Part shown: positions 1 to 43,673 of the stretch, one piece after another
How positions within the stretch are numbered: the first letter of the stretch is position 1
Layout: each line of letters starts with the position of its first letter
The notes under the pieces: model-generated
What the model was told of the DNA's origin: nothing
The model's input: the letters and a program-made list of their open reading frames with translations, nothing else
Databases searched by the model: none
Position numbers and translations under genes: made by a program
Assembly (NCBI GenBank): GCA_009760855.2
Contig: WPIO01000274.1
Coordinates: forward strand, 1 to 64,000
Origin: Cristatella mucedo
Taxonomy: Eukaryota; Bryozoa; Phylactolaemata; Cristatellidae
DNA: 64,000 nucleotides
Reading direction: 5' to 3'

Positions 1-441
1 AACAGTCATCGATTTTTGAAGAAGAATTTGCAGTGCCGGTTTTCATTTTTCTGGCCATGATTGGGGGAACGGATTTTGTATTCCCACGACAAAACAATAG
101 CAAAGATGTCATCAGCAAACCGTTGCTGAGAAACGTACGTATTACCCAAGGCTAGATGGTTACTAAGCAACGATCAGTGACAAGTGTTGCATTTTATTTT
201 GAATAAACTATAACAGCACTTGCTTTGACCTAAATATAGATGCAAGCATCCGGACGTTATCTGGACGCACTTCGTACCTCCTTTCGCATGCACGAAATAT
301 ACTTGTTGGTTCATTGAAAAATTATGCCGGCGGCTTAACTTAGTTCATTGTTACTGTACTGGCACACGAAATTTCAGCTTTAGGACTTTTATTCTCTTCA
401 CGAAGATTCTTAGAAATCCCATCGATTGTTTTGTCGGTGTC

Positions 442-976
442 AATGTATGTAGCTCCATCAGTAACTCCACAAAGTCATAAAGACATGTGGGTGTTAGGCA
501 GGAGAGTTTTGTATAGCACACTCACAGCCTAAGCGGCTTTCGGTACACATTCGGTAGCCATAAGGCTTCGTCTTACGCAACAAAGAGAAAGTGGGAAGCA
601 TATCGGAGTTAGGAGTGCAGTTGAGGTAGTGAGTAGCATAGAAGTAGCAGTTCAGGACCGCTGAAAAAGATGTGCCATAGTCGGCAGTTGGAGAGTAGAT
701 GTCGTTGCTTAAGAATTGTGGAAGCGAGTTCCACAGTCTAGGACCTGCAGAGCTAAAGCTTCTGTCGCCAACTGTCTTTAATCGGAGGAATGGGCCAGCT
801 AATTAATTGTCCACATATGACCTGAGGGCTCAAACAGGCTGAAACTGATGCAGCAGTTCAGCTAGGTACAAAGGAGCCAAGCCGTGGTGGGCGTTGTGGG
901 TCAGAATAAGAACTTTGCTCTGTATCCTTTGCTCAACCGGCAACCATCCTAGCTCCTTCAGCAAAGGTGACACGTG
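442..976 (-). mobile_element. LINE family A 3' fragment in unit 1
   Basis: 535-bp 5'-truncated L2/CR1-type LINE end, read on the - strand. It encodes the C-terminal tail of the reverse transcriptase ORF, with the family-typical strings KVL-LTHKA-HG, GDRSFSSAGPRLWNSLP and a 3' region ending near an ACAT-rich tail. In this copy the frame is broken near the Asp-Asn-Lys segment. It sits in the intron upstream of LRR exon W1 and is shared at the same place by units 2-4. Confidence 0.85.
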
Positions 977-1594
977 TTTGTACATAGCACGTACACGTCA
1001 GCCAATATTTGATGTTGGGTGATCTCCCCTCAATAATGCGTCCTGAGGCTTATCAACATCTGTCCCCACTGGCAGGCACAAATTATCGTTAACTCAACAA
1101 TCCAGTAACCCTGGTTCGTTATCAACACAAGGCAATGGGAACATAAATCTGTACCTTGTGTACTCATAGTGCTAGGCTTCAGAATATACAAGAAGTAGAT
1201 GAGATAAAAGACTTCTTCAAACATTGAAATTTAGTCTTCCGTTCACGAACTATGGCTTGCTGTGCTTATGTGAATTTGTAGTTGAAATCGCTATTTTTTT
1301 CAGCTTTTGTGTTAGCGAACGTAATCAACCACAATGAGAGTCGGTGATTCTTTAATCTTTCTACATTCCATTGGCTATGTAGTTCTGAGGTGTAGGAAGG
1401 TGTTTGTAACATTAACCGATCGCCTTTGAGAGTAGGTTCGTTAGTGATGTACGTATAGATGATGGAAGGACGAATGCTGTGACACCAGTGTGGTCCCTAT
1501 TTGAAATACAAAATAAGCTGTCATCTCCTGGATAACCGTCGTTAGACAGGCTGGTTCGACTGTAACTATGGTTCTTTTGGGTGTGATGTTTTAG

Positions 1595-1735
1595 CTTGAG
1601 GAGCTCTGGATCAGTGAAAATAAAGAGCTCTGCAGTCTTCCTCCCTCAGTTTGTCAGCTGCAAGCCCTGAAAAAGCTCGGTGCTTCTGACTGTGGCCTAA
1701 CTAAACTGCCCGATGGCTTGGAAGTCTTGCAGTTG
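1595..1735 (+). CDS. LRR exon W1 of a Roco-family gene (47 codons)
   Basis: Internal exon of 141 bp, phase 0 at both ends. It is preceded by a T-rich tract ending in TTAG and followed by gtaaga (the other copies have gtaagt). It translates without stops as two leucine-rich repeats of 24 and 23 residues: LEELWISENKEL-SLPPSVCQLQ, then ALKKLGASDCGLTKLPDGLEVLQL. The pattern LxxLxxSxNxLxxLPxxhxxLxx is the Roco-type LRR. The last residues join the next exon in perfect LRR register (L-x-x-L-x-x-L-x-x-L). Residue 29 is Gly, where the other W copies have Asp. LRR blocks of Roco proteins act as the sensor or interaction region ahead of the GTPase. Too short to be found as an ORF; recognised by repeat periodicity and splice sites. 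Confidence 0.85.
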
Positions 1736-2887
1736 GTAAGATAACGAGTGGCATTTTAGCCGTTAAGTGAAGTTCCTACTTTAATGTGGAAAAGATGCCA
1801 CTTTCTGTGTTTTGCATCCCAAGATGCAGTATTTTCGCAGATCAAAAACACATATCCACGACATTGAAATATCCTATTGTTTTGGCAATAGCTTCATGCC
1901 TCTATTGTGCTTTGTGACCTACCAATGTTAGCAGTGTGTAAACCAGAAATACTTGTTTCGGCAGACCGACGTTGAGTAGTTGGTCCTATGTATGGTCATG
2001 TTCACTGAAAATGTGCTTTGGAAAGTGACCTGAATATTTTCACTTAACGGGCTTAGCCTAAATTTGAGGGCAGCATTATATTCAAGTTGAGCACAACATG
2101 AATTTTTATTGTAGGTATAAAATTAAAATATGCTTGTACATTCAGTCTTTTTTCTTAGTGTTTCTACCGTTCTTTTTATAATTGATAACCCCGAGCTAGA
2201 TGCGAAGGTTATCTAGCTGAAAAATCGAAAATATGGTGAAGTTAAAACAAACAAACAATTTAAACGGTGCATTCATTTGTGTGCTGGTATCGTTACTCGT
2301 TTTTACTAGTCAAATGGAGTTCTTTTCACACAATTTCCGACTGAATCGCTAAAAAAGCTACAGGAGCAAAATTACAGGTTAGAGACAGTTTTTACGTCGA
2401 TGTTATACTCAAGTTGAAACACTGTCTAGCATGATATAATGATATACATGTTACTAGTCGCTTGATCATACACGTGACAGCCCTTGGTGGCTCATTATTG
2501 GAGGAAACTATTATTGTCCTCAAACGGTTTGTATATCGTCTTCGTGTCCCACCTTAAGTATACTATTTGTTTACTTCATGTTTCAGTAAGGAGCAGATAG
2601 TAAGAAGCGTATTGTGAGTCGTTTACTCTTTTTAATTTTACTGTGTCTCTGGCTGCTGCAGTCCTATTGGAATCTCACAGAGACACGAAGACACAATTTT
2701 TACGTTAAATGACTGTTTTACAGAGACCTTATTTGAGTGATGTCAATGCAGATGATGGAACAATAACTTGTGTGTCCCGCCCCTGATATTTATTCGTAAT
2801 ACTCAACACACTGTCATCCCTTGAACGACCGTAGATAGCCATTGTGGCTCGGAAGTCACCGTGGTTCTTTTTCGTGTCATTTTTTAG
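1736..2887 (+). other. Intron W1-R1 (1152 bp)
   Basis: GT-AG intron between the two LRR exons of unit 1. It is related along much of its length to the intron that follows the R exon, so the W and R modules arose by an older duplication. It holds short inverted repeats kept in all units: AGCTAGAT/ATCTAGCT at 2194-2218 and GTGTCTCTG/CAGAGACAC at 2643-2686. No gene seen inside. Confidence 0.7.
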
Positions 2888-3025
2888 CTGGAAGAGCTCC
2901 GGATCAGTAAAAACAAGCTCATCAGTCTTCCTTCCTCCATATGCCAACTGCATGCACTGAAAAAGCTCGCAGCATTTCAGTGCAACTTAAATAAACTGCC
3001 TGAAGGCTTGGAAGGAATGCGGTCG
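2888..3025 (+). CDS. LRR exon R1 (46 codons)
   Basis: Internal exon of 138 bp, phase 0/0, with acceptor TTTTTAG and donor gtaagt. It encodes two 23-residue LRRs: LEELRISKNKLISLPSSICQ, then the ALKKLAAFQCNLNKLPEGL block ending GMRS. It is homologous to exon W1 (same layout, one codon shorter after the Asn-Lys). The partner module in the unit is 1152 bp upstream and the next W exon is 2352 bp downstream. Confidence 0.85.
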
Positions 3026-4223
3026 GTAAGTTAGGAAGTGAAACTTTAGCTATTGCAAACCGAGAGGTTCTTCTTAAATATATAGGAATGCTGTTGCTTT
3101 GTAACTCTTGCAACCTATGATTCAGCATCGCTGTCAATTAAACGTGGTCCTAAGCAGGGTCGTTTTCGCAAATAACGTGCTTTCGACAGTAGGATGCATA
3201 TATTATGGGATTTGGCTTAGCTTAAAATTAAGGACACTTAAATAGTTCAGGTAAACTCAACATAAAATCTCAATTCAGCTTTATAAATGAAACAGGACGT
3301 TACTTTCAGTCGTTATTCGATTGTTTGTAATGCTTTTTCTTTAATAATTGATAACCCTGAAGTTGAGACTAGAGTTGTCCTGCTGCAAAAGGCTGTACTG
3401 GAGTTGATAACCAAGTTAAAGAAGCCTAAAGATTGCATTAAAATGTCTGGTGCTATCGTCATCCTTACGTATCATTTGGAAGAAGCTCTTTTCCCAGAAT
3501 TTTAGACTCATATGCCTTACGAGCATAAGGGGCTAAATTATACCATTTAGATTGCATTTTACAATGCTGTTCTCTTCTTGTTAAAACGCTGTTTAGCAGG
3601 TTAAATACGAAGACTGTCTTGCCGTTCATTTGCAACATACGACGGCCCTTGGTGACTCGGGTTTGTAAAACCTATGAGTGTCCTAAAACTATACGTGGAA
3701 AATGCCTGCCGATGTTTACTCATAGTTCACTTCATGTTTTACTTAGCAGCAGGTAGTTGCAAGCTTCTAATTGGTCAAGTCCGAACCAGTCATCGATTTT
3801 CGAAGAAGAATTTTCAGTGCCGGTTTCTTTTTCCTGGCCATGGTGGGGGCAACGGATTTCATTTTCGCACGACAAAACAATAGCAATGATGTCATGAGCT
3901 AACCGTTGCTGATAACGTACCGTATTACCCAAGGCTAGATGGTTACTAAGCAACGATCAGTGACAAGTGTTGCATTTTATTTTGAATAAACTATAACAGC
4001 ACTTGCTTTGACCTAAATATAGATGCAAGCATCCGGACGTTATCTGGACGCACTTCGTACCTGTTTTCGCATGCACGAAATATGCTTGTTTGTTCATTAA
4101 AAAATTATGCCGGCGGCTTAACTTAGTTGATTGTTACATACTGGCATACGCAATTTCAGCTTTAGGACTTTTATTCTCTTCACGAAGATTCTTAGAAATC
4201 TCATCGATTGTTTTGTCGGTGTC

Positions 4224-4758
4224 AATGTATGTACCTCCATCAGTAACTCCACAAAGTCATAAAGACATGTGGGTGTTAGGCAGGAGAGTTTTGTATAGCA
4301 CACTCACAGCCTAAGCGGCTTTCGGTACGCATTCGGTAGCCAACAGACTTCGTCTCACGCAACAAAGAGAAAGTGGGAAGCATATCGGAGTTAGGAGTGC
4401 AGTTGAGGTAGTGAGTAGCATAGAAGTAGCAGTTCAGGACCGCTGAAAAAGATGTGCCATAGTCGGCAGTTGGAGAGTAGATGTCGTTGCTTAAGAATTG
4501 TGGAAGCGAGTTCCACAGTCTAGGACCTGCAGAGCTAAAGCTTCTGTCGCCAACTGTCTTTAATCGGAGGAATGGGCCAGCTAATTTATTGTCCACATAT
4601 GACCTGAGGGCTCAAACAGGCTGAAACTGATGCAGCAGTTCAGCTAGGTACAAAGGAGCCAAGCCGTGGTGGGCCTTGTGGGTCAGAATAAGAACTTTGC
4701 TCTGTATCCTTTGCTCAACCGGCAACCATCCTAGCTCTTTCAGCAAAGGTGACACGTG
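4224..4758 (-). mobile_element. LINE family A 3' fragment in unit 2
   Basis: Same insertion as in unit 1, inherited by duplication. Here the C-terminal reverse transcriptase region stays open for 106 codons on the - strand (4596 to 4276), but this is a truncated 5' remnant without endonuclease or catalytic motifs and is not a functional gene. Units 2 and 4 share the variant that matches the independent element at 35.8 kb, so theirs is probably the ancestral state. Confidence 0.85.
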
Positions 4759-5377
4759 TTTGTACATAGCACGTACACGTCAGCCAATATTTGATGTTGG
4801 GTGATCTCCCCTCAATAATGAGTCCTGAGGCTTATCAACATCTGTCCCCACTGGCAGGCACAAATTATCGTTAACTCAACAATCCAGTAACCCTGGTTCG
4901 TAATCAACACAAGGCAATGGGAACATAAATCTGTACCTTGTGTACTCATAGTGCTAGGCTTCAGAATATACAAGAAGTAGATGAGATAAAAGACTTCTTC
5001 AAACATTGAAATTTAGTCTTCCGTTCACGAACTATGGCTTGCTGTGCTTATGTGAATTTGTAGTTGAAATCGCTATTTTTTTCAGCTTTTGTGTTAGCGA
5101 ACGCAATCAACCGCAATGAGAGTCGGTGATTCTTTAATCTTTCTACATTCCATTGGCTATGTAGTTCTGAGGTGTAGGAAAGTGTTTTTAACATTAACCG
5201 ATCGCCTTTGAGAGTAGGTTCGTTAGTGATGTACGTATAGATGATGGAAGGACGAATGCTGTGACACCAGTGTGGTCCCTATTTGAAATACAAAATAAGC
5301 TGTCATCTCCTGGATAACCGTCGTTAGACAGGCTGGTTCGACTGTAACTATGGTTCTTTTGGGTGTGTTTTTTTTAG

Positions 5378-5518
5378 CTTGAGGAGCTCTGGATCAGAGA
5401 AAATAAAGAGCTCTGCAGTCTTCCTCCCTCAGTTTGTCAGCTGCAAGCCCTGAAAAAGCTCGATGCTTCTGACTGTGGCCTAACTAAACTGCCCGATGGC
5501 TTGGAAGTCTTGCAGTTG
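5378..5518 (+). CDS. LRR exon W2 (47 codons)
   Basis: Second copy of the W exon, open, phase 0/0, with acceptor TTTTTAG and donor gtaagt. It differs from W3 and W4 by Ser7 to Arg (LEELWIRENKEL), a position on the LRR strand face next to the conserved Asn. Residue 29 is Asp. Confidence 0.85.
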
Positions 5519-6670
5519 GTAAGTTAACGAGTGGCATTTTAGCCGTTAAGTGAAGTTCCTACTTTATTGTGGAAAAGATGCCACTTTCTGTGTTTTGCAT
5601 CCCAAGATGCAGTATTTTCGCAGATCAAAAACACATATCCACGACATTGAAATATCCTATTGTTTTGGCAATAGCTTCATGCCTCTATTGTGCTTTGTGA
5701 CCTACCAATGTCAGCAGTGTGTAAACCAGAAATACTTGTTTCGGCAGACCGACGTTGAGTAGTTGGTCCTATGTATTGTCATGTTCACTGAAAATGTGCT
5801 TTGGAAAGTGACCTGAATATTTTCACTTAACGGGCTTAGCCTAAATTTGAGGGCAGCATTATATTCAAGTTGAGCACAACATGAATTTTTCTTGTAGGTA
5901 TAAAATTAAAATATGCTTGTACATTCAGTCTTTTTTCTTAGTGTTTCTACCGTTCTTTTTATAATTGATAACCCCGAGCTAGATGCGAAGGTTATCTAGC
6001 TGAAAAATCGAAAATATGGTGAAGTTAAAACAAACGAACAATTTAAACGGTGCATCCATTTGTGTGCTGGTATCGTTACTCGTTTTTACTAGTCAAATGG
6101 AGTTCTTTTCACACAATTTCCGACTGAATCGTTAAAAAAGCTACAGGAGCAAAATTACAGGTTAGAGACAGTTTTTACGTCGATGTAATACTCAAGTTGA
6201 AACACTGTCTAGCATGATATAATGATATACATGTTACTAGTCGCTTGATCGTACACGTGACAGCCCTCGGTGGCTCATTATTGGAGGAAACTATTATTGT
6301 CCTCAAACGGTTTGTATATCGTCTTCGTGTCCCACCTTAAGTATACTATTTGTTTACTTCATGTTTCAGTAAGGAGCAGATAGTAAGAAGCGTATTGTGA
6401 GTCGTTTACTCTTTTTAATTTTACTGTGTCTCTGGCTGCTGCAGTCCTATTGGAATCTCACAGAGACACGAAGACACAATTTTACCGTTAAATGACTGTT
6501 TTACAGAGACCTTATTTGAGTGATGTCAATGCAGATGATCGAACAATAACTTGTGTGTCCCGCCCCTGATATTTATTCGTAATACTCAACACACTGTCAT
6601 CCCTTGAACGACCGTAGATAGCCATTGTGGCTCGGAAGTCACCGTGGTTCTTTTTCGTGTCATTTTTTAG

Positions 6671-6808
6671 CTGGAAGAGCTCCGGATCAGTAAAAACAAG
6701 CTCATCAGTCTTCCTTCCTCCATATGCCAACTGCATGCACTGAAAAAGCTCGCAGCATTTCAGTGCAACTTAAATAAACTGCCTGAAGGCTTGGAAGGAA
6801 TGCGGTCG
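6671..6808 (+). CDS. LRR exon R2 (46 codons)
   Basis: Second copy of the R exon, open, phase 0/0, with acceptor TTTTTTAG and donor gtaagt. It is identical in sequence to R1 as far as I can see. The intron from W2 is again 1152 bp. Confidence 0.85.
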
Positions 6809-8015
6809 GTAAGTTAGGAAGTGAAACTTTAACTATTGCAAACCGAGAGGTTATTCTTAAATATAGGAATGCTGTTGCTTTGTAACTCTTGCAACCTATG
6901 ATTCAGCATCGCTGTCAATTAAACGTGGTCCTAAGCAGGGTCGTTTTCGAAAATAACGTGCTTTCGACAGTAGGATGCATATATTATGGGATTTGGCTTA
7001 GCTTAAAATTAAGGACACTTAAATAGTTCAGGTAAACTCAACATAAAATCTCAATTCAGCTTTATAAATGAAACAGGACGTTACTTTCAGTCGTTATTCG
7101 ATTGTTTGTAATGCTTTTTCTTTAATAATTGATAACCCTGAAGTTGAGACTAGAGTTGTCCTGCTGCAAAAGGCTGTACTGGAGTTGATAACCAAGTTAA
7201 AGAAGCCTAAAGATTGCATTAAAATGTCTGGTGCTATCGTCATCCTTACGTACCATTTGGACGAAGCTCTTTTCCCAGAATTTTAGACTCATATGCCTTA
7301 CGAGCATAAGGGGCTAAATTAGACCATTCAGATTGCATTATACAATGCCGTTCTCTTCTTGTTAAAACGCTGTTTAGCAGGTTAAATACGAAGCCTGTTT
7401 CGCCGTTCGATTGCACGTAAGACGGCCCTTGGTGACTCGCCTTTGTAAAACCTATGAGTGTCCTAAAACTATAGGTAGAAGATAGTCATGTCCTGCCGTT
7501 GTTTCCTCATAGTTCACTTCATGTTTTACTAAGCAGCAGGTAGTTGCAAGCTTCTAATTAGGGAAGTCCGAACCAGTCATCGATTTTTTTTGAAGAAGAA
7601 TTTGCAGTGCCGGTTTCATTTTCCTGGCCATGGTTGGGGCAACGGATTTCGTATTCCCACGACAAAACAATAGCAATGATGTCATCAGCAAACCGTTGCT
7701 GAGAACGTACCGTATTACCCAAGGCTAGATGGTTACTAAGCAACGATCAGTGACAAGTGTTGCATTTTATTTTGAAATAAACTATAACAGCACTTGCTTT
7801 GACCTAAATATAGATGCAAGCATCCGGACGTTATCTGGACGCACTTCGTACCTGTTTTCGCATGCACGAAATATGCTTGTTGGTTCATTGAAAAATTATG
7901 CCGGCGGCTTAACTTAGTTCATTGTTACTGTACTGGCATACGAAATTTCAGCTTTAGGACTTTTATTCTCTTCACGAAGATTCTTAGAAATCCCATCGAT
8001 TGTTTTGTCGGTGTC

Positions 8016-8550
8016 AATGTATGTAGCTCCATCAGTAACTCCACAAAGTCATAAAGACATGTGGGTGTTAGGCAGGAGAGTTTTTGTATAGCACACTCAC
8101 AGCCTAAGCGGCTTTTGGTACACATTCGGTAGCCATAAGACTTCGTCTTACGCAACAAAGAGAAAGTGGGAAGCATATCGGAGTTAGGAGAGCAGTTGAG
8201 GTAGTGAGTAGCATAGAAGTAGCAGTTCAGGACCGCTGAAAAAGATGTGCCATAGTCGGCAGTTGGAGAGTAGATGTCGTTGCTTAAGAATTGTGGAAGC
8301 GAGTTCCACAGTCTAGGACCTGCAGAGCTAAAGCTTCTGTCGCCAACTGTCTTTAATCGGAGGAATGGGCCAGCTAATTATTGTCCACATATGACCTGAG
8401 GGCGCAAACAGGCTGAAACTGATGCAGCAGTTCAGCTAGGTACAAAGGAGCCAAGCCGTGGTGGGCCTTGTGGGTCAGAATAAGAACTTTGCTCTGTATC
8501 CTTTGCTCAACCGGCAACCATCCTAGCTCTTTCAGCAAAGGTGACACGTG
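8016..8550 (-). mobile_element. LINE family A 3' fragment in unit 3
   Basis: Same 535-bp fragment at the homologous place in unit 3. It carries an extra T near 8084 and a missing base near 8380 relative to units 2 and 4, so the reading frame is split. It belongs to the variant class of unit 1 (cataag type), another sign of mosaic inheritance among units. Confidence 0.85.
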
Positions 8551-9168
8551 TTTGTACATAGCACGTACACGTCAGCCAATATTTGATGTTGGGTGATCTC
8601 CCCTCAATAATGCGTCCTGAGGCTTATCAACATCTGTCCCCACTGGCAGGCACAAATTATCGTTAACTCAACAATCCAGTAACCCTGGTTCGTTATCAAC
8701 ACAAGGCAATGGGAACATAAATCTGTACCTTGTGTACTCATAGTGCTAGGCTTCAGAATATACAAGAAGTAGATGAGATAAAAGACTTCTTCAAACATTG
8801 AAATTTAGTCTTCCGTTCACGAACTATGGCTTGCTGTGCTTATGTGAATTTGTAGTTGAAATCGCTATTTTTTTCAGCTTTTGTGTTAGCGAACGTAATC
8901 AACCACAATGAGAGTCGGTGATTCTTTAATCTTTCTACATTCCATTGGCTATGTAGTTCTGAGGTGTAGGAAGGTGTTTGTAACATTAACCGATCGCCTT
9001 TGAGAGTAGGTTCGTTAGTGATGTACGTATAGATGATGGAAGGACGAATGCTGTGACACCAGTGTGGTCCCTATTTGAAATACAAAATAGCCTGTCATAT
9101 CCTGGATAACCGTCGTTAGACAGGCTGGTTCGACTGTAACTATGGTTCTTTTGGGTGTGTTTTTTTAG

Positions 9169-9309
9169 CTTGAGGAGCTCTGGATCAGTGAAAATAAAGA
9201 GCTCTGCAGTCTTCCTCCCTCAGTTTGTCAGCTGCAAGCCCTGAAAAAGCTCGATGCTTCTGACTGTGGCCTAACTAAACTGCCCGATGGCTTGGAAGTC
9301 TTGCAGTTG
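9169..9309 (+). CDS. LRR exon W3 (47 codons)
   Basis: Third W exon, open, phase 0/0, with acceptor TTTTTTAG and donor gtaagt. Its protein matches W4 exactly and serves as the W consensus. The following intron is 1159 bp, slightly longer than in the other units because of a small duplication just after the donor region. Confidence 0.85.
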
Positions 9310-10468
9310 GTAAGTTAACGAGTGTGCATTTTAGCCGTTAAGTGAGTGAAGTTCCTACTTTAATGTGGAAAAGATGCCACTTTCTGTGTTTTGCATCCCA
9401 AGATGCAGTATTTTCGCAGATCAAAAACACATATCCACGACATTGAAATATCCTATTGTTTTGGCAATAGCTTCATGCCTCTATTGTGCTTTGTGACCTA
9501 CCAATGTCAGCAGTGTGTAAACCAGAAATACTTGTTTCGGCAGACCGACGTTGAGTAGTTGGTCCTATGTATTGTCATGTTCACTGAAAATGTGCTTTGG
9601 AAAGTGACCTGAATATTTTCACTTAACGGGCTTAGCCTAAATTTGAGGGCAGCATTATATTCAAGTTGAGCACAACATGAATTTTTATTGTAGGTATAAA
9701 ATTAAAATATGCTTGTACATTCAGTCTTTTTTCTTAGTGTTTCTACCGTTCTTTTTATAATTGATAACCCCGAGCTAGATGCGAAGGTTATCTAGCTGAA
9801 AAATCGAAAATATGGTGAAGTTAAAACAAACGAACAATTTAAACGGTGCATCCATTTGTGTGCTGGTATCGTTACTCGTTTTTACTAGTCAAATGGAGTT
9901 CTTTTCACACAATTTCCGACTGAAATCGTTTAAAAAAGCTACAGGAGCAAAATTACAGGTTAGAGACAGTTTTTACGTCGATGTTATACTCAAGTTGAAA
10001 CACTGTCTAGCATGATATAATGATATACATGTTACTAGTCGCTTGATCATACACGTGACAGCCCTTGGTGGCTCATTATTGGAGGAAACTATTATTGTCC
10101 TCAAACGGTTTGTATATCGTCTTCGTGTCCCACCTTAAGTATACTATTTGTTTACTTCATGTTTCAGTAAGGAGCAGATAGTAAGAAGCGTATTGTGAGT
10201 CGTTTACTCTTTTTAATTTTACTGTGTCTCTGGCTGCTGCAGTCCTATTGGAATCTCACAGAGACACGAAGACACAATTTTACCGTTAAATGACTGTTTT
10301 ACAGAGACCTTATTTGAGTGATGTCAATGCAGATGATGGAACAATAACTTGTGTGTCCCGCCCCTGATATTTATTCGTAATACTCACCACACTGTCATCC
10401 CTCAAACGACTGTGGATAGCCATCGTGGCTCGGAAGTCACCATGGTTCTTTTTCGTGTCATTTTTTAG

Positions 10469-10606
10469 CTGGAAGAGCTCCGGATCAGTAAAAACAAGCT
10501 CATCAGTCTTCCTTCCTCCATATGCCAACTGCATGCACTGAAAACGCTCGTAGCGTTTCAGTGCAACTTAACTATACTGCCTGAAGGCTTGGAAGGAATG
10601 CGGTCG
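10469..10606 (+). CDS. LRR exon R3 (46 codons, most divergent)
   Basis: Third R exon, open, phase 0/0, with acceptor TTTTTTAG and donor gtaagt. Compared with R1 and R2 it has four amino-acid changes in its second repeat: Lys26Thr, Ala28Val, Asn35Thr and Lys36Ile. The core Leu positions are unchanged. The changes fall in a local cluster of substitutions that starts in the upstream intron, which suggests conversion from another unit. LRR function is retained by pattern. Confidence 0.85.
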
Positions 10607-11809
10607 GTAAGTTAGGAAGTGAAACTTTAACTATTGCAAACCGAGAGGTTATTCTTAAATATAGGAATGCTGTTGCTTTGTAACTCTTGCAACCTATGAT
10701 TCAGCATCGCTGTCAATTAAACGTGGTCCTAAGCAGGGTCGTTTTCGAAAATAACGTGCTTTCGACAGTAGGATGCATATATTATGGGATTTGGCTTAGC
10801 TTAAAATTAAGGACACTTAAATAGTTCAGGTAAACTCAACATAAAATCTCAATTCAGCTTTATAAATGAAACAGGACGTTACTTTCAGTCGTTATTCGAT
10901 TGTTTGTAATGCTTTTTCTTTAATAATTGATAACCCTGAAGTTGAGACTAGAGTTGTCCTGCTGCAAAAGGCTGTACTGGAGTTGATAACCAAGTTAAAG
11001 AAGCCTAAAGATTGCATTAAAATGTCTGGTGCTATCGTCATCCTTACGTATCATTTGGAAGAAGCTCTTTTCCCAGAATTTTAGACTCATATGCTTTACG
11101 AGCATAAGGGGCTAAATTAGACCATTCAGATTGCATTATACAATGCCGTTCTCTTCTTGTTAAAACGCTGTTTAGCAGGTTAAATACGAAGCCTGTTTCG
11201 CCGTTCGATTGCACGTAAGACGGCCCTTGGTGACTCGCCTTTGTAAAACCTATGAGTGTTATAAAACTATAGGTAGAAGATAGTCACGTCCTGCCGTTGT
11301 TTCCTCATAGTTCACTTCATGTTTTACTAAGCAGCAGGTAGTTGCAAGCTTCTAATTAGGGAAGTCCGAACCAGTCATCGATTTTTGAAGAAGAATTTGC
11401 AGTGCCGGTTTCATTTTCCTGGCCATGGTTGGGGCAACGGATTTCGTATTCCCACGACAAAACAATAGCAATGATGTCATCAGCAAACCGTTGCTGAGAA
11501 CGTACCGTATTACCCAAGGCTAGATGGTTACTAAGCAACGATCAGTGACAAGTGTTGCATTTTATTTTGAATAAACTATAATAGCTCTTGCTTTGACCTA
11601 TATATAGATGCAAGCATCAAGAAGTTATCTGGACGCACTTCGTACCTGTTTTCGCATGCACGAAATATGCTTGTTGGTTCATTGAAAAATTATGCCGGCG
11701 GCTTAACTTAGTTCATTGTTACTGTACTGGCATACGAAATTTCAGCTTTAGGACTTTTATTCTCTTCACGAAGATTCTTAGAAATCCCATCGATTGTTTT
11801 GTCGGTGTC

Positions 11810-12344
11810 AATGTATGTACCTCCATCAGTAACTCCACAAAGTCATAAACACATGTGGGTGTTAGGCAGGAGAGTTTTGTATAGCACACTCACAGCCTAA
11901 GCGGCTTTCGGTACGCATTCGGTAGCCAACAGACTTCGTCTCACGCAACAAAGAGAAAGTGGGAAGCATATCGGAGTTAGGAGTGCAGTTGAGGTAGTGA
12001 GTAGCATAGAAGTAGCAGTTCAGGACCGCTGAAAAAGATGTGCCATAGTCGGCAGTTGGAGAGTAGATGTCGTTGCTTAAGAATTGTGGAAGCGAGTTCC
12101 ACAGTCTAGGACCTGCAGAGCTAAAGCTTCTGTCGCCAACTGTCGTTAATCGGAGGAATGGGCCAGCTAATTTATTGTCCACATATGACCTGAGGGCTCA
12201 AACAGGCTGAAACTGATGCAGCAGTTCAGCTAGGTACAAAGGAGCCAAGCCGTGGTGGGCCTTGTGGGTCAGAATAAGAACTTTGCTCTGTATCCTTTGC
12301 TCAACCGGCAACCATCCTAGCTCTTTCAGCAAAGGTGACACGTG
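11810..12344 (-). mobile_element. LINE family A 3' fragment in unit 4
   Basis: Fourth copy of the shared insertion. It keeps the 106-codon open C-terminal reverse transcriptase remnant on the - strand with one difference (Thr-Thr instead of Lys-Thr before Val-Gly-Asp). It is a truncated element with no catalytic domain. Confidence 0.85.
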
Positions 12345-12963
12345 TTTGTACATAGCACGTACACGTCAGCCAATATTTGATGTTGGGTGATCTCTCCTCA
12401 ATAATGCGTCCTGAGGCTTATCAACATCTGTCCCCACTGGCAGGCACAAATTATCGTTAACTCAACAATCCAGTAACCCTGGTTCGTTATCAACACAAGG
12501 CAATGGGAACATAAATCTGTACCTTGTGTACTCATAGTGCTAGGCTTCAGAATATACAAGAAGTAGATGAGATAAAAGACTTCTTCAAACATTGAAATTT
12601 AGTCTTCCGTTCACGAACTATGGCTTGCTGTGCTTATGTGAATTTGTAGTTGAAATCGCTATTTTTTTCAGCTTTTGTGTTAGCGAACGTAATCAACCAC
12701 AATGAGAGTCGGTGATTCTTTAATCTTTCTACATTCCATTGGCTATGTAGTTCTGAGGTGTAGGAAAGTGTTTTTAACATTAACCGATCGCCTTTGAGAG
12801 TAGGTTCGTTAGTGATGTACGTATAGATGATGGAAGGACGAATGCTGTGACACCAGTGTGGTCCCTATTTGAAATACAAAATAAGCTGTCATCTCCTGGA
12901 TAACCGTCGTTAGACGGGCTGGTTCGACTGTAACTATGGTTCTTTTTGGGTGTGATTTTTTAG

Positions 12964-13104
12964 CTTGAGGAGCTCTGGATCAGTGAAAATAAAGAGCTCT
13001 GCAGTCTTCCTCCCTCAGTTTGTCAGCTGCAAGCCCTGAAAAAGCTCGATGCTTCTGACTGTGGCCTAACTAAACTGCCCGATGGCTTGGAAGTCTTGCA
13101 GTTG
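12964..13104 (+). CDS. LRR exon W4 (47 codons)
   Basis: Fourth W exon, open, phase 0/0, with acceptor TTTTTAG and donor gtaagt. The protein is identical to W3. The intron to R4 is 1152 bp. Confidence 0.85.
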
Positions 13105-14256
13105 GTAAGTTAACGAGTGGCATTTTAGCCGTTAAGTGAAGTTCCTACTTTATTGTGGAAAAGATGCCACTTTCTGTGTTTTGCATCCCAAGATGCAGTA
13201 TTTTCGCAGATCAAAAACACATATCCACGACATTGAAATATCCTATTGTTTTGGCAATAGCTTCATGCCTCTATTGTGCTTTGTGACCTACCAATGTCAG
13301 CAGTGTGTAAACCAGAAATACTTGTTTCGGCAGACCGACGTTGAGTAGTTGGTCCTATGTATTGTCATGTTCACTGAAAATGTGCTTTGGAAAGTGACCT
13401 GAATATTTTCACTTAACGGGCTTAGCCTAAATTTGAGGGCAGCATTATATTCAAGTTGAGCACAACATGAATTTTTCTTGTAGGTATAAAATTAAAATAT
13501 GCTTGTACATTCAGTCTTTTTTCTTAGTGTTTCTACCGTTCTTTTTATCATTGATAACCCCGAGCTAGATGCGAAGGTTATCTAGCTGAAAAATCGAAAA
13601 TATGGTAGATTTAAAACAAACAAACAATTTAAACGGTCCATCCATTTGTGTGCTGGTATCGTTACTCGTTTTTACTAGTCAAATGGAGTTCTTTTCACAA
13701 AATTTCCGACTGAATCGTTGAAAAAGCTACAGGAGCAAAATTACAGGCTATAGACAGTTTGTACGTAGATGTTATATTCAAGTTGAAACACTGTCTAGCA
13801 TGATATAATGAAACGCTTGTTTCTAGTTACTTGATCATACACGTGACAGCCCATGGTGGCTCATATTTGGAGAAAACTATTCTTGTCCTCAAACGGTTTG
13901 TATATCGTCTTCGTGTCCCACCTTAAGTATACTATTTGTTTACTTCATGTTTCAGTAAGGAGCAGGTAGTAAGAAGCGTATTGTGAGTCGTTTACTCTTT
14001 TTAATGTTACTGTGTCTCTGGCTGCTGCAGTCCTATCGGAATCTCACAGAGACACGAAGACACAATTTTACCGTTAAATGACTGTTTTAAAGAGACCTTA
14101 TTTGAGTGATGTCAATGCAGATGATGGAACAATAACTTGTGTGTCCCGCCCCTGATATTTATTCGTAATACTCAACACACTGTCATCCCTCGAACGACCG
14201 TAGATAGCCATCGTGGCTCGGAAGTCACCGTGGTTCTTTTTCGTGTCATTTTTTAG

Positions 14257-14394
14257 CTGGAAGAGCTCTCGATCAGTAAAAACAAGCTCATCAGTCTTCC
14301 TTCCTCCATATGCCAACTGCATGCACTGAAAAAGCTCGCAGCATTTCAGTGCAACTTAAATAAACTGCCTGAAGGCTTGGAAGGAATGCGGTCG
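14257..14394 (+). CDS. LRR exon R4 (46 codons)
   Basis: Fourth and last intact array exon, open, phase 0/0, with acceptor TTTTAG and donor gtaagt. Residue 5 is Ser (LEELSISKNK), where R1-R3 have Arg and the W exons have Trp. This is a predicted surface position of the LRR beta strand. Its end (GLEGMRS) joins the start of the exon at 34116 (LQVLRLNDN) in phase 0 and in correct LRR spacing, about 19.7 kb downstream. Confidence 0.83.
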
Positions 14395-15156
14395 GTAAGT
14401 TAGGAAGTGAAACTTTAACTATTGCAAACCGAGAGGTTATTCTTAAATATAGGAATGCTGTTGCTTTGTAACTCTTGCAACCTATGATTCAGCATCGCTG
14501 TCAATTAAACGTGGTCCTAAGCAGGGTCGTTTTTGCAAATAACGTGCTTTCGACAGTAGGATGCATATATTATGGGATTTGGCTTAGCTTAAAATTAAGG
14601 ACACTTAAATAGTTCAGGTAAACTCAACATAAAATCTCAATTCAGCTTTATAAATGAAACAGGACGTTACTTTCAGTCGTTATTCGATTGTTTGTAATGC
14701 TTTTTCTTTAATAATTGATAACCCTGAAGTTGAGACTAGAGTTGTCCTGCTGCAAAAGGCTGTACTGGAGTTGATAACCAAGTTAAAGAAGCCTAAAGAT
14801 TGCATTAAAATGTCTGGTGCTATCGTCATCCTTACGTATCATTTGGAAGAAGCTCTTTTCCCAGAATTTTAGACTCATATGCCTTACGAGCATAAGGGGC
14901 TAAATTATACCATTTAGATTGCATTTTACAATGCTGTTCTCTTCTTGTTAAAACGCTGTTTAGCAGGTTAAATACGAAGCCTGTTTCGCCGTTCGATTGC
15001 ACGTAAGACGGCCCTTGGTGACTCGCCTTTGTAAAACCTATGAGTGTCCTAAAACTATAGGTAGAAGATAGTCATGTCCTGCCGATGTTTCCTCATAGTT
15101 CACTTCATGTTTTACTAAGCAGCAGGTAGTTGCAAGCTTCTAATTAGTTAAGTCCG

Positions 15157-16643
15157 TACCAGTCATCGATTTTTGAAGAAGAATTTGCAGTGCCGGTTTC
15201 ATTTTCCTGGCCATGGTTGGGGCAACGGATTTCGTATTCCCACGACAAAACAATAGCAATGATGTCATCAGCAAACCGTTGCTGAGAACGTACCGTATTA
15301 CCCAAGGCTAGATGGTTACTAAGCAACGATCAGTGACAAGTGGTGCATTTTATTTTGAATAAACTATAATAGCTCTTGCTTTGACCTATATATAGATGCA
15401 AGCATCAAGAAGTTATCTGGACGCACTTCGTACCTGTTTTCGCATGCACGAAATATGCTTGTTGGTTCATTAAAAAATTATGCCGGCGGCTTAACTTAGT
15501 TGATTGTTACATACTGGCATACGCAATTTCAGCTTTAGGACTTTTATTCTCTTCACGAAGATTCTTAGAAATCTCATCGATTGTTTTGTGGGTGTCAGCT
15601 TTGTACATAGAACGAACACGTCAGCCAATATTTGATGTTGGGTGATTTCTCCTTAGTAATGAGTCCTGAGGCTTCTGTCCCCACTGGCAGGCACCAATTA
15701 TCGTTAACTCAGCAATTCAGTAACCCTGTTTCGTTATCACTGCAAGGCGTTGGAAACATAAATCTGTACCTTGCGTACTCATAGTGCTAGGCTTCAGAAT
15801 GTACAAGAATTAGATAAGATAAAAGACTCCGGCAAATATTTCAAATTGGTCTTCCCTTCACGAACAATGGCTTGCTGTGGTAATGTGATTTTTAGTTTAA
15901 ATAGCTATTTTTCAAGGCTTTTGTGTTAGCAAATGCGATCAACCACAATGAGAGTCGGTGATTCTTTAAAACCAATGAGAGTCTGATGTTCTTGAAAGTG
16001 TTTTTACATTCCATTGGCCAGATGATGGAAGGATGAATAATTTACTATTTACGATAGAAAAAACTTATGATTACATCTCACCGTTGTTGGTTTTGGTTCA
16101 GCTTTATTAATGAAACAGGACGTTACTTTCATTCGTTATCCGAGTGTCTGTAATCCTTTTTTTTAAATAATTGATAAACCTGAACTTACGGCTAGAGTCG
16201 TCCTGCTGCAAAATGCTGCAGTGGAGTTGATTAACAACTTAAAGAAGCCTAAAGATTGCATTAAAATGTCTGGTGCTATCGTCATCCTTACGTACCATTT
16301 GGATGAAGCTCTTTTCTCAGAATTTTAGACTCATATGCCTTACAGCACGAGGGGCTAAATTAGGCCATTCAGATTGCATTATACAATGCCGTTCTCTTCT
16401 TGTTAAAACGCTGTTTAGCTGGTTAATTACGAAACCTGTTTTGCCGTTCGATTGCATGATAGACGGCCCTTGGTGACTCGGCTTTGTAAAATCTATGCGT
16501 GTCCTAAAACTATAGGTAAAAAATAGTCATGTCCTACCGACGTTTACTCATACTTCATGCATTTTTACTGAGCAGCAACAAGTAGTTACAAACGTCTAAT
16601 CGGTGAAGTCCATACCAGTCGTCGAATTTTGAAGAACGATTTG
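15157..16643 (+). repeat. Degenerate terminal unit, copy 5 (no LRR exons)
   Basis: It begins and ends with the same boundary sequence as the full units but is only about 1.46 kb. It differs in two ways. At about 15596 the 535-bp LINE fragment is absent and the flanks are joined directly. Between about 16030 and 16095 roughly 1.8 kb is missing, including both LRR exons. It also carries many more substitutions than copies 1-4, so it is the oldest preserved member. Its right end runs into a LINE 3' fragment. Confidence 0.9.
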
Positions 16644-16850
16644 CTTTGCATTCACGAAGAAGCTCAGAGCGCACCTGTTTAACTCAGCATTTAGCTGATC
16701 TGTGTATTTAGCTCTTCGTGTGCTTACTCTGTGCCGGCCCCTTGAGGATTTTGTTACCATGCACTTGGAAATGCTTTTCATGCAGCATTTTTAAAGTGCC
16801 TGGAGTGAGATGTAGTTCTCTTAAAGTGCTAACATTTATTTACTTATCGC
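16644..16850 (+). mobile_element. LINE family B 3' end, decayed
   Basis: Starts exactly where unit 5 stops. It shows the last codons of the family B reverse transcriptase ORF in decayed form (a frame related to LKTHLFRTAFS) and the 3' terminal stem-loop region (aaagtgcctggagtgagatg), then a T/A-rich tail. Compare the intact tail at 28103-28142. Confidence 0.6.
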
Positions 16851-19955: not shown

Positions 19956-20091
19956 GGGTCAGAGGCTAATTCCTGCCAAATAAGCCATACTCCGGCCATG
20001 CTGCCGCTCGCCATGCTGCTGAACTATGATAAGACAAGTGGCCATCAGCTAAGACCACTTTGTAACATCGCATGCGTAAGCAACCGTCAAA

Positions 20092-22045
20092 GGGCGTTCG
20101 GCTGAGCGGATTTTTCAATTATCGGCAAAGGAGGTACACACGTTCTTCTTGGCACCACCTAAGTAGACGGTCGCAATAAAATCGCGAGCTTAATCTCGCA
20201 GATAGGACGCATCAAAACTCGTTTAAGGTGGTTAAAAAGCCAATGGTAAGTGATAGGCAGTACATCACCTTTCAAAAACTAAACGTGCATCGCGCTTTTA
20301 CTTTCGTAGTGATACAAGAAACTAGATATTAGGTGGAAATGGTTAATCACCCCCCCTTTTGATTCTACATAATTTATTACTTGCTAATGCAAAGCTCAAG
20401 AATAACTACACAGTCGGCTTTCCTAAGTTTAGTGTTATTCGGCCTGCGTGTAATATTAGATAATTATTTAACTTTCGGGCTTGCACTTTCAACTACGGCG
20501 TTTAATAGTCAAAAAGAATGTTTCTTCTCGGGTAATCGAGGGACCGCCAAAGCATGCTGTAAGTAGTTATAACACGCAACAACATGCAGTAACTAACATT
20601 GCAATCAAACAGTCGGTACGTGAAACCGCACGCCTAAAAATGTTTATCCCAGTGGTGTTATCATAGGTTGAATGCATCTAGGAAAATTGGAAGTGAACAA
20701 TTTCAAGCTGCTCTTAGTAGGTGTTCTAGGCTGGTTGCGAATTGGCTTGAACTGGTGTAAATATGCCGCACTACATTTACGTTTGATTCAGGGCAAACAA
20801 TCTGTGGTTGTTTGGCATTTGAAAACACATGCTTGTTTTGAATCACCTGGTGAATAATAGACAGGCATCGACCCCTGTATTTTGTTAAGTTACTAGCCAA
20901 CGCTAAAAACTCCATGAGGATTGACGTACCTGACCTATACACTTGCCGGACATTTAGCGGAGTGGTTTTGTTTGTACGGGCTTGAACGTCTCGACAGCTG
21001 CAACTTCGCAGCTACTGGCAAGGAAATGGCACCGGTAGCACGTGGGAACCATTAATGACCATAACAACGAAATAATTCCCTTAATCTATCGAATAAACCT
21101 TTCCATCCCCCAAAGCTAATCCAATAAATGAATTCATATTATTGTCGAGTCGTTTAGCCTGCCTGGGTGTTGTGATGTCAATCAAACGAAGTATATCCAG
21201 TAAATACATTTGTTGTAGTGACAACATCTTATTTTAATTTTGCCTTGAGAAGTACACCTGTAAGAAACGTCAAATTAAAATAATCATTTTTGCATCGCTT
21301 TAATAACCTGTGCGTCGTCGTAAAGGGAACGTTTTATTTGAAGAATACTTCCAGCCGACGCACACCACGTGCAGAACGCACACTTAGGCTTTGCAAAAAA
21401 ATGGAAAGACCAAATGGAATTAGAATTAGCAGCCGGTTACGTACAGTTGATCTTTATATCTTAAATATGTGCTGATATAACGTGATTTTCAGCAACAACA
21501 GTGAAGTTTCTTTTCTTACCGATTACATTTAACTAGTCGTTTATTATATTTTGCATGTGAAATAAAGCTTAATTTACGCTGATGCTGGATAGATGCAAAA
21601 TATTTAAGCGACAGGCAAAATGCATGGCTGATTTTGTTCCACTTGCTAACTAACGAAAGCCGCCGTTTTTAACAAGATTTCACTTTTAATATGCCGTAAA
21701 AGCATAATGGGTTTGGGCGTCTAACTGTCTAATAGCTTCCGAGTAGATGTTTTAGGCTGGCTAAAATCCGTCGTAGCTTTAAGTATAAATTCTGCGTGGT
21801 AGTACCATTTGATCCAAGGGACAAGAGCCTTCCTTCGTGCGGATTTTTAAAATCTTGTGTTTTGTGTGGTAGTACCGTTCGATCCTCGGGACGAACGATT
21901 TTTTTATACGGATTTTTATAATCTTGTCTTTTCTTGAATTTACAGATCGTTATTTTGACGGCATCGTGTGATGCTTGGTAATAGTTAATAGCAGGTTGAC
22001 GAAACCTCTCAAGGCCGTCCATAAGCCGTGTCAGCGACTATCGTA
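20092..22045 (+). repeat. Intron repeat family R2, copy 1 (1954 bp)
   Basis: First of three diverged direct repeats that each begin at gggcgttcggctgagc. Shared landmarks are gcgagcttaatctcgcag, aggtggtta-aa--caatgg and acatcacc, and later gttttattt and gtgcgtcgt. It contains a segment at about 20520-21165 missing from copy 2, and a short local tandem duplication at 21797-21935 (gtggtagtacc blocks about 70 bp apart). No credible exon found. Confidence 0.75.
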
Positions 22046-25180: not shown

Positions 25181-25999
25181 ACTGACGTCACGTTTCGCTA
25201 TTTTTAATAATGTTTTTTGCTCGGCTTACGATTCTTGGCAAGCTTAGAAAGTCAAAGTGTTTCTTAAGCCTGTGAGTGGAACTTTAGCTATGCCACTTGC
25301 TATTTCTCTTGCATTACCGCCGTCTAAGTAAGAACTGGTTTATTAACATCATTCGATTGGATCGACCGATCATTCACTAGCGATTTAGATGAACATTATG
25401 CTAAGGTGACCAGTATGTCTTGTGCCTGGTACTTACCTGTATTGAGAAATTGGCCGTGCTTTCTTTGAAGATTTGGTCTCGAAGGCCAAAGCGGCGTAGT
25501 ATAAACGACTGTCTTTAATAAAAAAGAATTGTTTTCGTGACGGCTCATGTCCTCTCTTTTCCTCGGTAACATACATTTGTTCAGCCAAACTAAAACGAGA
25601 AAATGACGTTGTCGCACTGCGTTCTTAAACCTTGGTCGTTAGCAAGGTTCTTTCTTATAGCATTCCCACTTGCGACTTGGCTTGCACACACGGTAAGGTT
25701 TTGTGTAATTTACAATTAAAGCATGCAACTAGCTTTTAGGTTGAGAATTTATAACGGTTAGTCACGCTTTCGATCTATACGGTACGTTTAGGAGCTTTTA
25801 CTGTTAGCAACATTTGCGTTCGTCGTTGTCTGAATGAAATGCTTGAATATGATGTCGGTCCTATATGTAAAAAGAAAGAAAAGCAGCATTATTAGGACGT
25901 GAGCAGGATAAAACCATAGATTCATATGGCACGTGAGATCCTCTTTCGATCCCATTGTGCTTGTTGAAGTATTAAATAGTGCTGTTTTCAAAGAACCCC
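25181..25999. other. Non-coding stretch, nothing recognised
   Basis: AT-rich sequence between repeat R3 and the LINE at 26 kb. Short open frames on the - strand (73 and 67 codons) have no recognisable motif and no splice support. Confidence 0.5.
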
Positions 26000-34115: not shown

Positions 34116-34223
34116 TTGCAGGTGCTGCGTCTTAATGACAACTGCCTGAACACTTACCCTACTGGTACCCTCGGTTTGAAGAGTCTTCGAGAACTCGACC
34201 TATCAAATGACTGGCATGGCTGG
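34116..34223 (+). CDS. LRR exon preceding the Roc domain exon (36 codons)
   Basis: 108-bp exon, phase 0/0. The acceptor is a long pyrimidine tract ending ctctctttag, and the donor is gtaagt. It encodes LQVLRLNDNCLNTYPTGTLG, then LKSLRELDLSNDWHGW. The start at 34116 is chosen over the AG at 34121 because Leu-Gln-Val-Leu gives exact LRR spacing; the shorter form would break it. It continues in frame into the exon at 41837 (AFAGHGNMITELPDEVV), completing the repeat DLSND...ITELPDEV. It is less similar to the W and R exons than they are to each other, so it is a stable, older LRR exon. Confidence 0.85.
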
Positions 34224-41836: not shown

Positions 41837-43673
41837 GCGTTTGCTGGACATGGAAACATGATAACTGAGCTGCCAGATGAAGTTGTTCATACCTCACTGA
41901 CCAATCTCTCATTGGAAGGCAATCCAATGGTTTTTCCACCTAGTGAGGTGTGTGACCAGGGAATTAAAGCTATTCGGCAGTACTTCCGAGATAGCAGTCA
42001 GGGGAAGGAATCGCTATGCAATGATACTATCAACATGCTTGGAGACACGGGAGCAGGAAAGACTAGCATCGTTCAGTCGTTACTCTTCGGCCGGCCATCC
42101 ACTGCTGCAGCTGACGATAGAACTCGTGTGATAGATCAGAGCCTTGTAAACATTGAAAATCAGATCATAAATGTGAATGACTTTGGTGGACATGAAATTT
42201 ATCAAACAGTGGTTCCAATATTTTTGCCTTCCAATGGACTTTGCATAATTGCGTTCGACGTATTCAAAAACCTTAAGAAGCAGAAGGAGCAGGTAAACAA
42301 GTGGCTTATGACGATATTTGCTAAATCAACCGAGATACGAGTTATCGTAGTTGGCACGCATTCCGATCTTCTTGTTGAACCAGGCCAACTAAAGGTTGTG
42401 GAAGAAGAGATGGAGAAGTACGTAAAAGAAATTCAGCTGTCTGCTGAAGAAGAGCTTACATTTCATATAAATGCACTTGAATCAAGTCCGGATTCCTCCA
42501 AAACTAACGTCGACTTCCTCAAACAGCATCTTGAAAATATAAAAGATGCTGACATTCAAGTCACAACGATGAGCTGCAAAGACAGAGGTGAAAATCGCAT
42601 AGGTGAATTGAGATCATTAATCAAGAAAAAACTAAAGGCCTCGGAGCAATATCCTGCAACATGGTGTCATATTATGAAAGAAATAAGGGGCCTTAAGTCA
42701 GACGATGACAACTATCGACCATATTTGGAATGGGAGCAGGTCAGAAAAGTTTATGCAAGACACTTGGAGCCGGAGCCGGACGACTCCACACTGAAAGCTA
42801 TACTTAGATCTCTCGTATCTACATCCCAGATTATATGGCTAGAGAGCTCTTCGTCTCTTAAACACTTAGTTTTCAATCAACCTCAACGAATTGTTGACGA
42901 TTTAAAGAAGATATTGCATCACAAATATTCCGAAAGTCATAAAAACGACTACTATTACCAAGACTGTATGAATTTATATCGTCAATGGGAACTTCATAGA
43001 GATTTCTTTGCCCAGTTGCTGGGAAGTGAACATGTCAATGCTGTCAGCGATTTTATGCAACATTTTCACATGATCGCCAAGTCTTCTGAGGAAAAGTACA
43101 TCTTGACTGCCAATCTCCCTGAGCAGCCTCCTTCTAGGCTGCAAGAGTGGCTAAGAAAGGCAGCTGAAGATCCTCCTGTTTGCTTGCGGCTCAGCTTCTT
43201 GAGAGATCTCATGCCACTTGCTTTCTTTCCAACGAACCTTGCATCAATGTTATCCTGGCTGTTTTCGGAAAAAGCTGAGCCAGAATTCTGGAAGGATGGT
43301 ATGCTTGTCAAACTGCATGGTGTACCTATAATAATGAGACGTAACAAGAGTGCTTTGGAATTGGTGGCATTTTCAACAGCTGGCAAGAATGAAGTCTGGA
43401 GACCTTTAAATTCCTTGCTTGACTGCATCACTAAGAATGTGGCAATGTCGTGGAAAGGCGTCAAACCGATGTGTACGCTTATCTGCCCTGGATCGAGATA
43501 CCTGGAGAGCCTGCTTCCAACGGACCAACCACCTCTGGGACGTTTAGTGGATTGGAATGAACTGGCGAAAAACGGGCAAACTAGAGCTGAGATTACACTA
43601 CATTCAAGAACCTGGTATTGCAACAAGTGCTGCTATGAAATACCTTTGATGTGGATGTATCTACAACAGCCAG
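41837..43673 (+). CDS. Roco protein: last LRR, Roc GTPase and COR domain exon
   Basis: Large exon of 612 codons plus one base. Acceptor tgctttag is at 41829-41836. The probable donor is CCAG|gtatga at 43673/43674 (phase 1); if unspliced the frame would stop at 43691-43693. Exon residues 1-45 finish the LRRs (ITELPDEVV; LTNLSLEGNPMVFPPSEVC). The Roc GTPase follows at about 65-257: P-loop GDTGAGKT at 69-76 (42041-42064), switch II DFGGHE at 115-120 with His in place of the Gln seen in Ras, GTHSD at 173-177 (G4, guanine specificity) and SCKD at 246-249 (G5). COR runs from about 272 (YPATWCHIMKEI) to the exon end, with WKDGMLVKLHGVP and a late Cys-x-x-Cys. Roc-COR acts as a GTP-dependent dimerising switch. 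Upstream LRR exons join in phase 0. Any C-terminal effector domain would lie in exons not found here. Frame fully intact. Confidence 0.93.

Follow-up and report, generated by a model that had tools for sequence, protein, structure and literature searches.

Head-to-tail cassettes of leucine-rich-repeat exons in a Roco gene family of a probable animal

Why does a gene carry several nearly identical copies of the same pair of exons upstream of a GTPase domain, and do these copies serve to vary a receptor? The question is raised by the window analysed here, a stretch comprising bases 1-64,000 of contig C193 (150,735 bp) from a genome of 572 Mb in 688 contigs. The first 15.16 kb of the window are occupied by four head-to-tail units (U1-U4), each with two exons, W and R, encoding leucine-rich repeats (LRRs); an exon for a Roc GTPase follows downstream on the same strand. 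We consider it likely that this array encodes the sensor of one member of an expanded LRR-Roc-COR (Roco) gene family of a probable animal, and that its product is a diversified recognition receptor.

The cassette array and its versions on other contigs

Individual units are 3,784-3,798 bp long (about 3.79 kb), and their pairwise identity is 97.38-98.39%, with 3-11 indel events per pair. Each consists of W (141 bp, 47 amino acids) and R (138 bp, 46 amino acids), together four LRRs and 93 residues, plus intervening sequence. All eight exons of the window have AG before and GTAAG after them and are open in phase 0. An earlier note on this DNA had described four such units with two intact, GT-AG-flanked exons each, compatible in frame and running off the left edge of the window, and all of this is borne out. 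That edge coincides with the left end of C193, so the array has been cut by the assembly and not by the window. Since all exons are symmetric and in phase 0, cassettes could be added, removed or exchanged without frameshift, and each would add 93 residues (four LRRs) to the sensor.

To this description we add a diverged and truncated fifth unit, U5, located directly after U4 (Table 1), whose aligned parts are 6-14% diverged from U1-U4. Compared with U5 of contig C509, which keeps W and R, U5 of C193 has a 1,802-bp internal gap that removes both exons; U5 of contig C470 is also devoid of them. U1-U4 each contain a dispersed-repeat piece (534 bp in U1), missing from U5 of both C193 and C509, which appears LINE-like (LINE, long interspersed nuclear element) by eye from its reading frame. 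All 36 candidates scored across the genome, out of 8,845, match it at 94-95%.

W and R are themselves related. With one W codon omitted from the alignment, their nonsynonymous divergence (dN) is 0.21-0.23 and their synonymous divergence (dS) 0.67-0.73, and the similarity ends within about 30 bp of the exon. Because the two are related, dN is below dS and the likeness is confined to the exon, W and R probably arose by duplication of a two-LRR exon and were held under constraint before their amplification as a pair. The simplest order of events would be formation of the exon pair, duplication of the cassette, insertion of the repeat and amplification of the repeat-marked cassette.

With the 2.3-kb W/R part of U1 as query (40 of 296 candidates scored), the genome gave at least 18 full or near-full matches, all on the plus strand: four on C193, five on C509 (the fifth unit counted), five on C470 and four on C491. 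These four contigs are small (25.6-150.7 kb) and all begin inside the array; its full length therefore lies beyond what they show. The left boundary was not found among the 48 unit-DNA matches listed from that search, nor among the 150 exon matches listed (150 of 263 candidates scored). The right flank of C193 is matched by C509 and C470 at 97.8-98.3% over 6-8 kb, and a diverged fifth unit of the U5 type is common to the three contigs. They may represent other alleles, paralogs or, to put it boldly, somatic versions of one locus.

Among the 15 units compared between contigs, nearest partners do not occupy like positions: for the last repeat-bearing unit of C509 the partner is U1 of C193, and for the first unit of C470 it is the second of C509. 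Within C193, 20 sites splitting the four units 2:2 fall in six runs (permutation P 0.0008), the partners being mostly U2+U4 at the left of the unit and U2+U3 at the right. Such partner switching is the trace expected from crossing-over or conversion between units. Exon content differs as well. One junction in the window lacks an exon-bearing segment that is present in C470 (Table 1), and one W of C470 carries an extra in-frame codon; W is open in all 18 copies, and a callable R is kept in 16 of the 18 units. The recent and repeated expansion proposed in the earlier note thus gains support from at least 18 units on four contigs, from mosaic units and from gain and loss of exons. Unequal crossing-over together with gene conversion between near-identical cassettes would alter the number of units and reassort W and R.

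The Roc-COR exon, the gene family and the host

Two further exons of the window, a short last LRR exon starting at 34116 and a long Roc-COR exon (Table 1), most likely continue the gene of the array. The P-loop of the latter reads GDTGAGKTS, its Roc domain scores 52.1 bits with Pfam PF08477 (cut-off 27), and the best match of Roc in the PDB is the Roc domain of LRRK2. The GTP-binding motifs GxxGAGKTS, DFGG and GTHxD are invariant across 13 aligned sequences. Chains of LRRK1 align with residues 4-367 of the exon, and according to this alignment a COR domain likely follows Roc. The 3' end of the exon is donor-like (CCAG/GTATGA) and the encoded Pro-Gly (PG) is nearly invariant in the 13 aligned sequences, so that further exons probably follow. 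The frame is open in the window copy. A homologue search with this exon gave three proteins among the 8,000 candidates scored. A broken second Roc-COR copy with internal stops lies near the far end of the contig (C193:146588-148369).

The earlier note regarded the array as a single locus. The array is real, yet it proved to be one instance of a family-wide architecture. Matches to the Roc-COR exon number 63 in the genome, 12 of them near full length and without a stop. LRR exon matches precede a Roc match on the same strand at 16 loci on at least 15 contigs (150 of 263 exon candidates scored), namely C193, C107, C148, C150, C274, C237, C167, C239, C263, C256, C49 (two loci), C80, C114, C245 and C550; the Roc match is fragmentary or contains stops on C80, C114, C239, C245 and at one of the C49 loci. 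The 34116 exon has 11 matches including its own, the 10 others with E values from 8e-15 to 0.049. Eight of the 11 (seven of the 10 others) are situated between LRR exons and Roc on the same strand; two more, on C128, where the contig ends, and at C114:276475, stand 5' of Roc with no LRR match upstream, and one weak match on C148 fits neither arrangement. This order of matches points to a common architecture of n two-LRR exons, a short LRR exon, a Roc-COR exon and probably further exons, which splicing would join into one protein. Both the Roco assignment and the role given to the 34116 exon in the earlier note are supported by these results.

LRR exons were called by an exon caller that required phase 0, AG and GT borders, a length of 120-165 bp and an LRR score. 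Calls scoring at least 28 were kept, giving 115 exons: 39 from C193, C509, C470 and C491, and 76 from 80 stretches around LRR exon matches on 13 other contigs, picked from the 150 matches listed. A GT or GC donor at 141 bp was taken as the end of seven exons first called at 153 bp. The resulting lengths are 141 bp (95 exons), 138 bp (19) and 144 bp (one); since the caller demanded phase 0, uniformity of phase is partly built in, whereas uniformity of length is not. An intact exon was found in 76 of the 80 stretches, the exceptions being L077, L082, L108 and L119, one of which has a stop while the others are broken or partial.

Several loci of the family deserve mention in their own right. Three LRR exons of one Roco gene on C237 (L094, L095 and L096) encode identical protein, apparently another recent exon expansion. 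Five LRR exons at C148:156075-180564 are arranged with a regular 6.1-kb period, and the differences between their proteins are almost confined to positions 5, 10, 29, 31 and 32. Of another Roco gene, C150 and C274 each hold a version; the Roc-COR exons share 99% DNA identity, and the LRR exons differ by 4-12 of 141 bases (five exon pairings tried). Five exon pairs were compared between C173 and C215; the differences amount to 0-3 bases in four of them and to 18 of 141 in the fifth, an outlier that might result from conversion by another exon.

The host was approached through COI on the mitochondrial-type contig C688, where AGR stands for Ser, ATA for Met and AAA for Lys at conserved sites. These readings correspond to translation table 5, by which the host is probably an animal and not a cnidarian, demosponge or echinoderm. 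A brown alga as host is rejected on the same code. Foreign contamination is unlikely, as copies of the repeat piece (94-95%) occur elsewhere in the genome, seven of the eight fetched on contigs of 2.7-13.6 Mb, and as Roc or LRR exon matches are also found on C550 (13.6 Mb) and C49 (985 kb). By eye, the DNA beside COI (L044, C688) appears rich in short GC-rich palindromic repeats.

Amino-acid change at the concave face

In the LRRs of brown-algal ROCO proteins, positive selection was described at four concave sites, 14, 16, 18 and 19 (PMC11378527). By spacing, we mapped these sites to positions 3, 5, 7 and 8 of LxxLxLxxN and compared the proportions of nonsynonymous (pN) and synonymous (pS) differences by a counting method, the 144-bp exon being dropped, identical sequences collapsed to one and groups required to have at least two members. 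Over 15 groups, pN at these positions was 0.287 versus a pS of 0.171, and pN elsewhere was 0.096; pooled pN/pS reached 1.67 at the concave positions and 0.56 at the remaining ones. pN exceeded pS at concave positions in 14 of the 15 groups, and among 20,000 random sets of eight positions there was none as extreme. The group bootstrap 95% range of pN/pS was 1.18-2.55, and the ratio was 1.48 after four probable second versions had been dropped. Position 10, which lies beside the conserved Asn and outside the tested set, is also very variable (pN 0.369).

The W+R family of the window shows the same pattern, with pN/pS of 3.23 at concave positions and 0.51 in the rest of the exon; for R alone the concave value is 4.25. 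Concave codons of R diverge by 14.25% versus 5.23% for introns (15 of 18 units), a level that 1 of 300 equally shaped intron blocks attains, and W diverges by 1.51% versus the same 5.23%. A first small test, in which the window's units were compared with one another, had placed five of seven replacements at concave sites (P 0.009), but it was chosen after the data had been seen; the later sets used positions from the brown-algal paper. The excess of amino-acid over silent change at predicted concave positions makes receptor diversification, as proposed in the earlier note, a probable function of the array. Positive selection would then alter residues of the concave face of reassorted cassettes, and by analogy with other LRR receptors a ligand would bind to this face and the Roc-COR GTPase would relay the output.

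The Roc-COR exon evolves fast, too. Among the nearest relatives of the window copy, dN is about equal to dS with the frame open: 0.151 and 0.124, respectively, for L009/L011, and 0.162 and 0.163 for L009/L010, values for distant pairs being 0.25-0.65. Between L009 (C193) and L011 (C128), identity upstream of about 41.1 kb is 93-97% in most 150-bp bins (88-89% in two); from the Roc-COR exon onwards it is about 77-95%, mostly below 92.

A number of observations weigh against the array being the sensor of a diversified receptor. The start of the gene lies outside contig C193. No Pfam match to COR was obtained in the Roc-COR exon. The LRR matches of C214, C215 and C276 are placed to the wrong side of Roc, and C173 has LRR matches and no Roc match; a possible reason is that contig ends truncate neighbouring genes. 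On C491 one R exon is lost, another R has AT in place of the AG acceptor and one W has a GC donor, and the fifth units of C193 and C470 have neither exon. Group C114 is the sole exception of the 15, with pN/pS of 0.70 even at concave sites. W alone varies little (concave pN/pS 1.34, with 196 of 5,000 random position sets as extreme), and all P values given here are indicative only, because exons within an array are not independent.

Alternatives, precedents and other features

The array might instead be a reservoir for alternative splicing, transcripts taking subsets of W and R by Dscam-like choice or by skipping, with diversity generated at the RNA level. The symmetric phase-0 exons and good splice sites of the window suit this idea, and several splice variants are described for the brown-algal ROCO genes whose LRR exons are shuffled (PMC11378527). 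However, exon content already differs between contigs in DNA, which means that variation exists at the DNA level whatever splicing does. We regard splicing as the source of diversity as rather unlikely.

A sensor diversified in DNA might also serve allorecognition, as a compatibility molecule distinguishing self from non-self, and not pathogen sensing. Diversification of the concave face and variation between versions fit both uses; yet nothing separates the two, and the molecular mechanism would be the same in both. This role appears unlikely to us.

Another view takes the array for a decaying or silent duplicate whose tandem repeats are neutral. C491, U5 and the 25472/25473 junction show loss or damage of exons, the four array contigs are small, and stop-bearing Roc copies exist in the genome. 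On the other hand, all eight C193 exons are open with intact splice sites, W lies below intron divergence, the changes in R are concentrated at concave codons, pN/pS is 0.51 in the rest of the W+R exons and the Roc-COR frame is open. A silent duplicate is improbable.

The boldest possibility is that the animal rearranges its Roco LRR cassettes somatically, a single individual carrying more array versions than two germline alleles allow. It is raised by C193, C470 and C509, which share the right flank but differ in array content, and by the similar array of C491. If true, it would reveal an LRR-based system of receptor diversification outside vertebrates, but paralogous duplicates or unresolved haplotypes explain the differences between contigs more simply, and we hold it to be very improbable. 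That the assembly wrongly repeated one or two units, as the ends of C193, C470, C491 and C509 inside the array might suggest and as the earlier note had itself considered, is hardly credible and is rejected, since the units are 1.6-2.6% apart and have coding differences of their own, four contigs carry the array, and the diverged fifth unit is common to C193, C470 and C509.

For the preferred reading, a diversified LRR-Roc-COR receptor, several known systems offer comparison. LRR-ROCO genes of brown algae are reportedly the subject of work by Zambounis et al. in 2012. LRRK1, LRRK2 and bacterial Roco proteins resemble the present gene in having Roc with its G motifs and LRRs before Roc; near-identical LRR cassettes are not known from them. 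Modular LRRs and diversity of the concave face are also features of lamprey variable lymphocyte receptors (VLRs) and of the LRR domains of plant NLRs. Both, however, are different proteins; VLRs are assembled somatically from cassettes, and nothing such is shown here.

The closest precedent is the set of brown-algal LRR-ROCO genes with exon shuffling (Teng et al. 2024, PMC11378527). They share the LRR-Roc-COR order, many paralogs, frame-preserving LRR exon modules and positive selection at four concave sites, and an immune receptor was proposed there. Cassette form, exon phase and host differ: each LRR there occupies one 72-bp phase-2 exon, whereas here two LRRs share a 141- or 138-bp phase-0 exon, two such exons with four LRRs form a 3.79-kb cassette that includes the repeat piece and is repeated head to tail at 97-98% identity, and the host, by its COI code, is probably an animal. 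LRR genes of Tetrahymena likewise contain arrays of uniform symmetric LRR exons, for which unequal crossing-over was proposed, and a LINE-like element stands beside their young units (PMC6564038); here, a piece that is LINE-like by eye occurs in U1-U4 and not in U5. Unlike the present case, those exons are 90 bp long and in phase 2, with no link to Roc-COR in the passages covered of that source.

The principle is thus already known, exon shuffling in brown algae (PMC11378527) and the 90-bp arrays of Tetrahymena (PMC6564038) being clear precedents. The present case differs in the probable animal host, two LRRs per phase-0 exon and the head-to-tail amplification of a compound, repeat-marked cassette. 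No report of Roco exon arrays in animals was found among the papers listed in searches of the open-licence full text of PMC (PubMed Central), which is weak evidence of absence. If our reading is true, an animal has independently built an exon-cassette LRR-Roco repertoire like the proposed immune system of brown algae, with a cassette that shifts sensor length by 93 residues per step. The loci allow unit number, exon mosaicism and selection on the binding face to be measured together, and they bear on what LRRs are there for in Roco proteins, a group known chiefly for LRRK2 and Parkinson's disease.

Table 1. Features of the window and their positions
Feature	Positions	Strand	Remarks
Unit U1	3..3786	+	left-most, at contig start; by unit alignment
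Unit U2	3787..7573	+	by unit alignment
Unit U3	7574..11371	+	by unit alignment
Unit U4	11372..15159	+	by unit alignment
Unit U5	15160..16644	+	diverged and truncated, without W/R exons and dispersed-repeat piece
Exon W1	1595..1735	+	47 aa (amino acids), two LRRs, phase 0
Exon R1	2888..3025	+	46 aa, two LRRs, phase 0
Exon W2	5378..5518	+	
Exon R2	6671..6808	+	
Exon W3	9169..9309	+	
Exon R3	10469..10606	+	four amino acids unlike R1 and R2
Exon W4	12964..13104	+	
Exon R4	14257..14394	+	
Dispersed-repeat piece	443..976	.	534 bp in U1; also U2 4225-4758, U3 8017-8550, U4 11811-12344; absent from U5
Junction	25472..25473	+	lacks a 277-bp segment holding a 138-bp LRR exon, present in C470
Last LRR exon before Roc-COR exon	34116..34223	+	36 aa, phase 0; most likely same gene
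Roc-COR exon	41837..43672	+	end of last LRR, Roc GTPase, COR-like stretch; exon end inferred; most likely same gene

Rfam gave no hit above gathering scores in the window. A second set of local tandem duplications, with 76-81% identity, lies 3' of the array at 20072-25156, and further LRR exons are present in or near the regions of C470 and C509 that match it. Fragments resembling reverse transcriptase were noticed by eye in the list of open reading frames at 26116-27031, 45909-46286 and 56212-57089.

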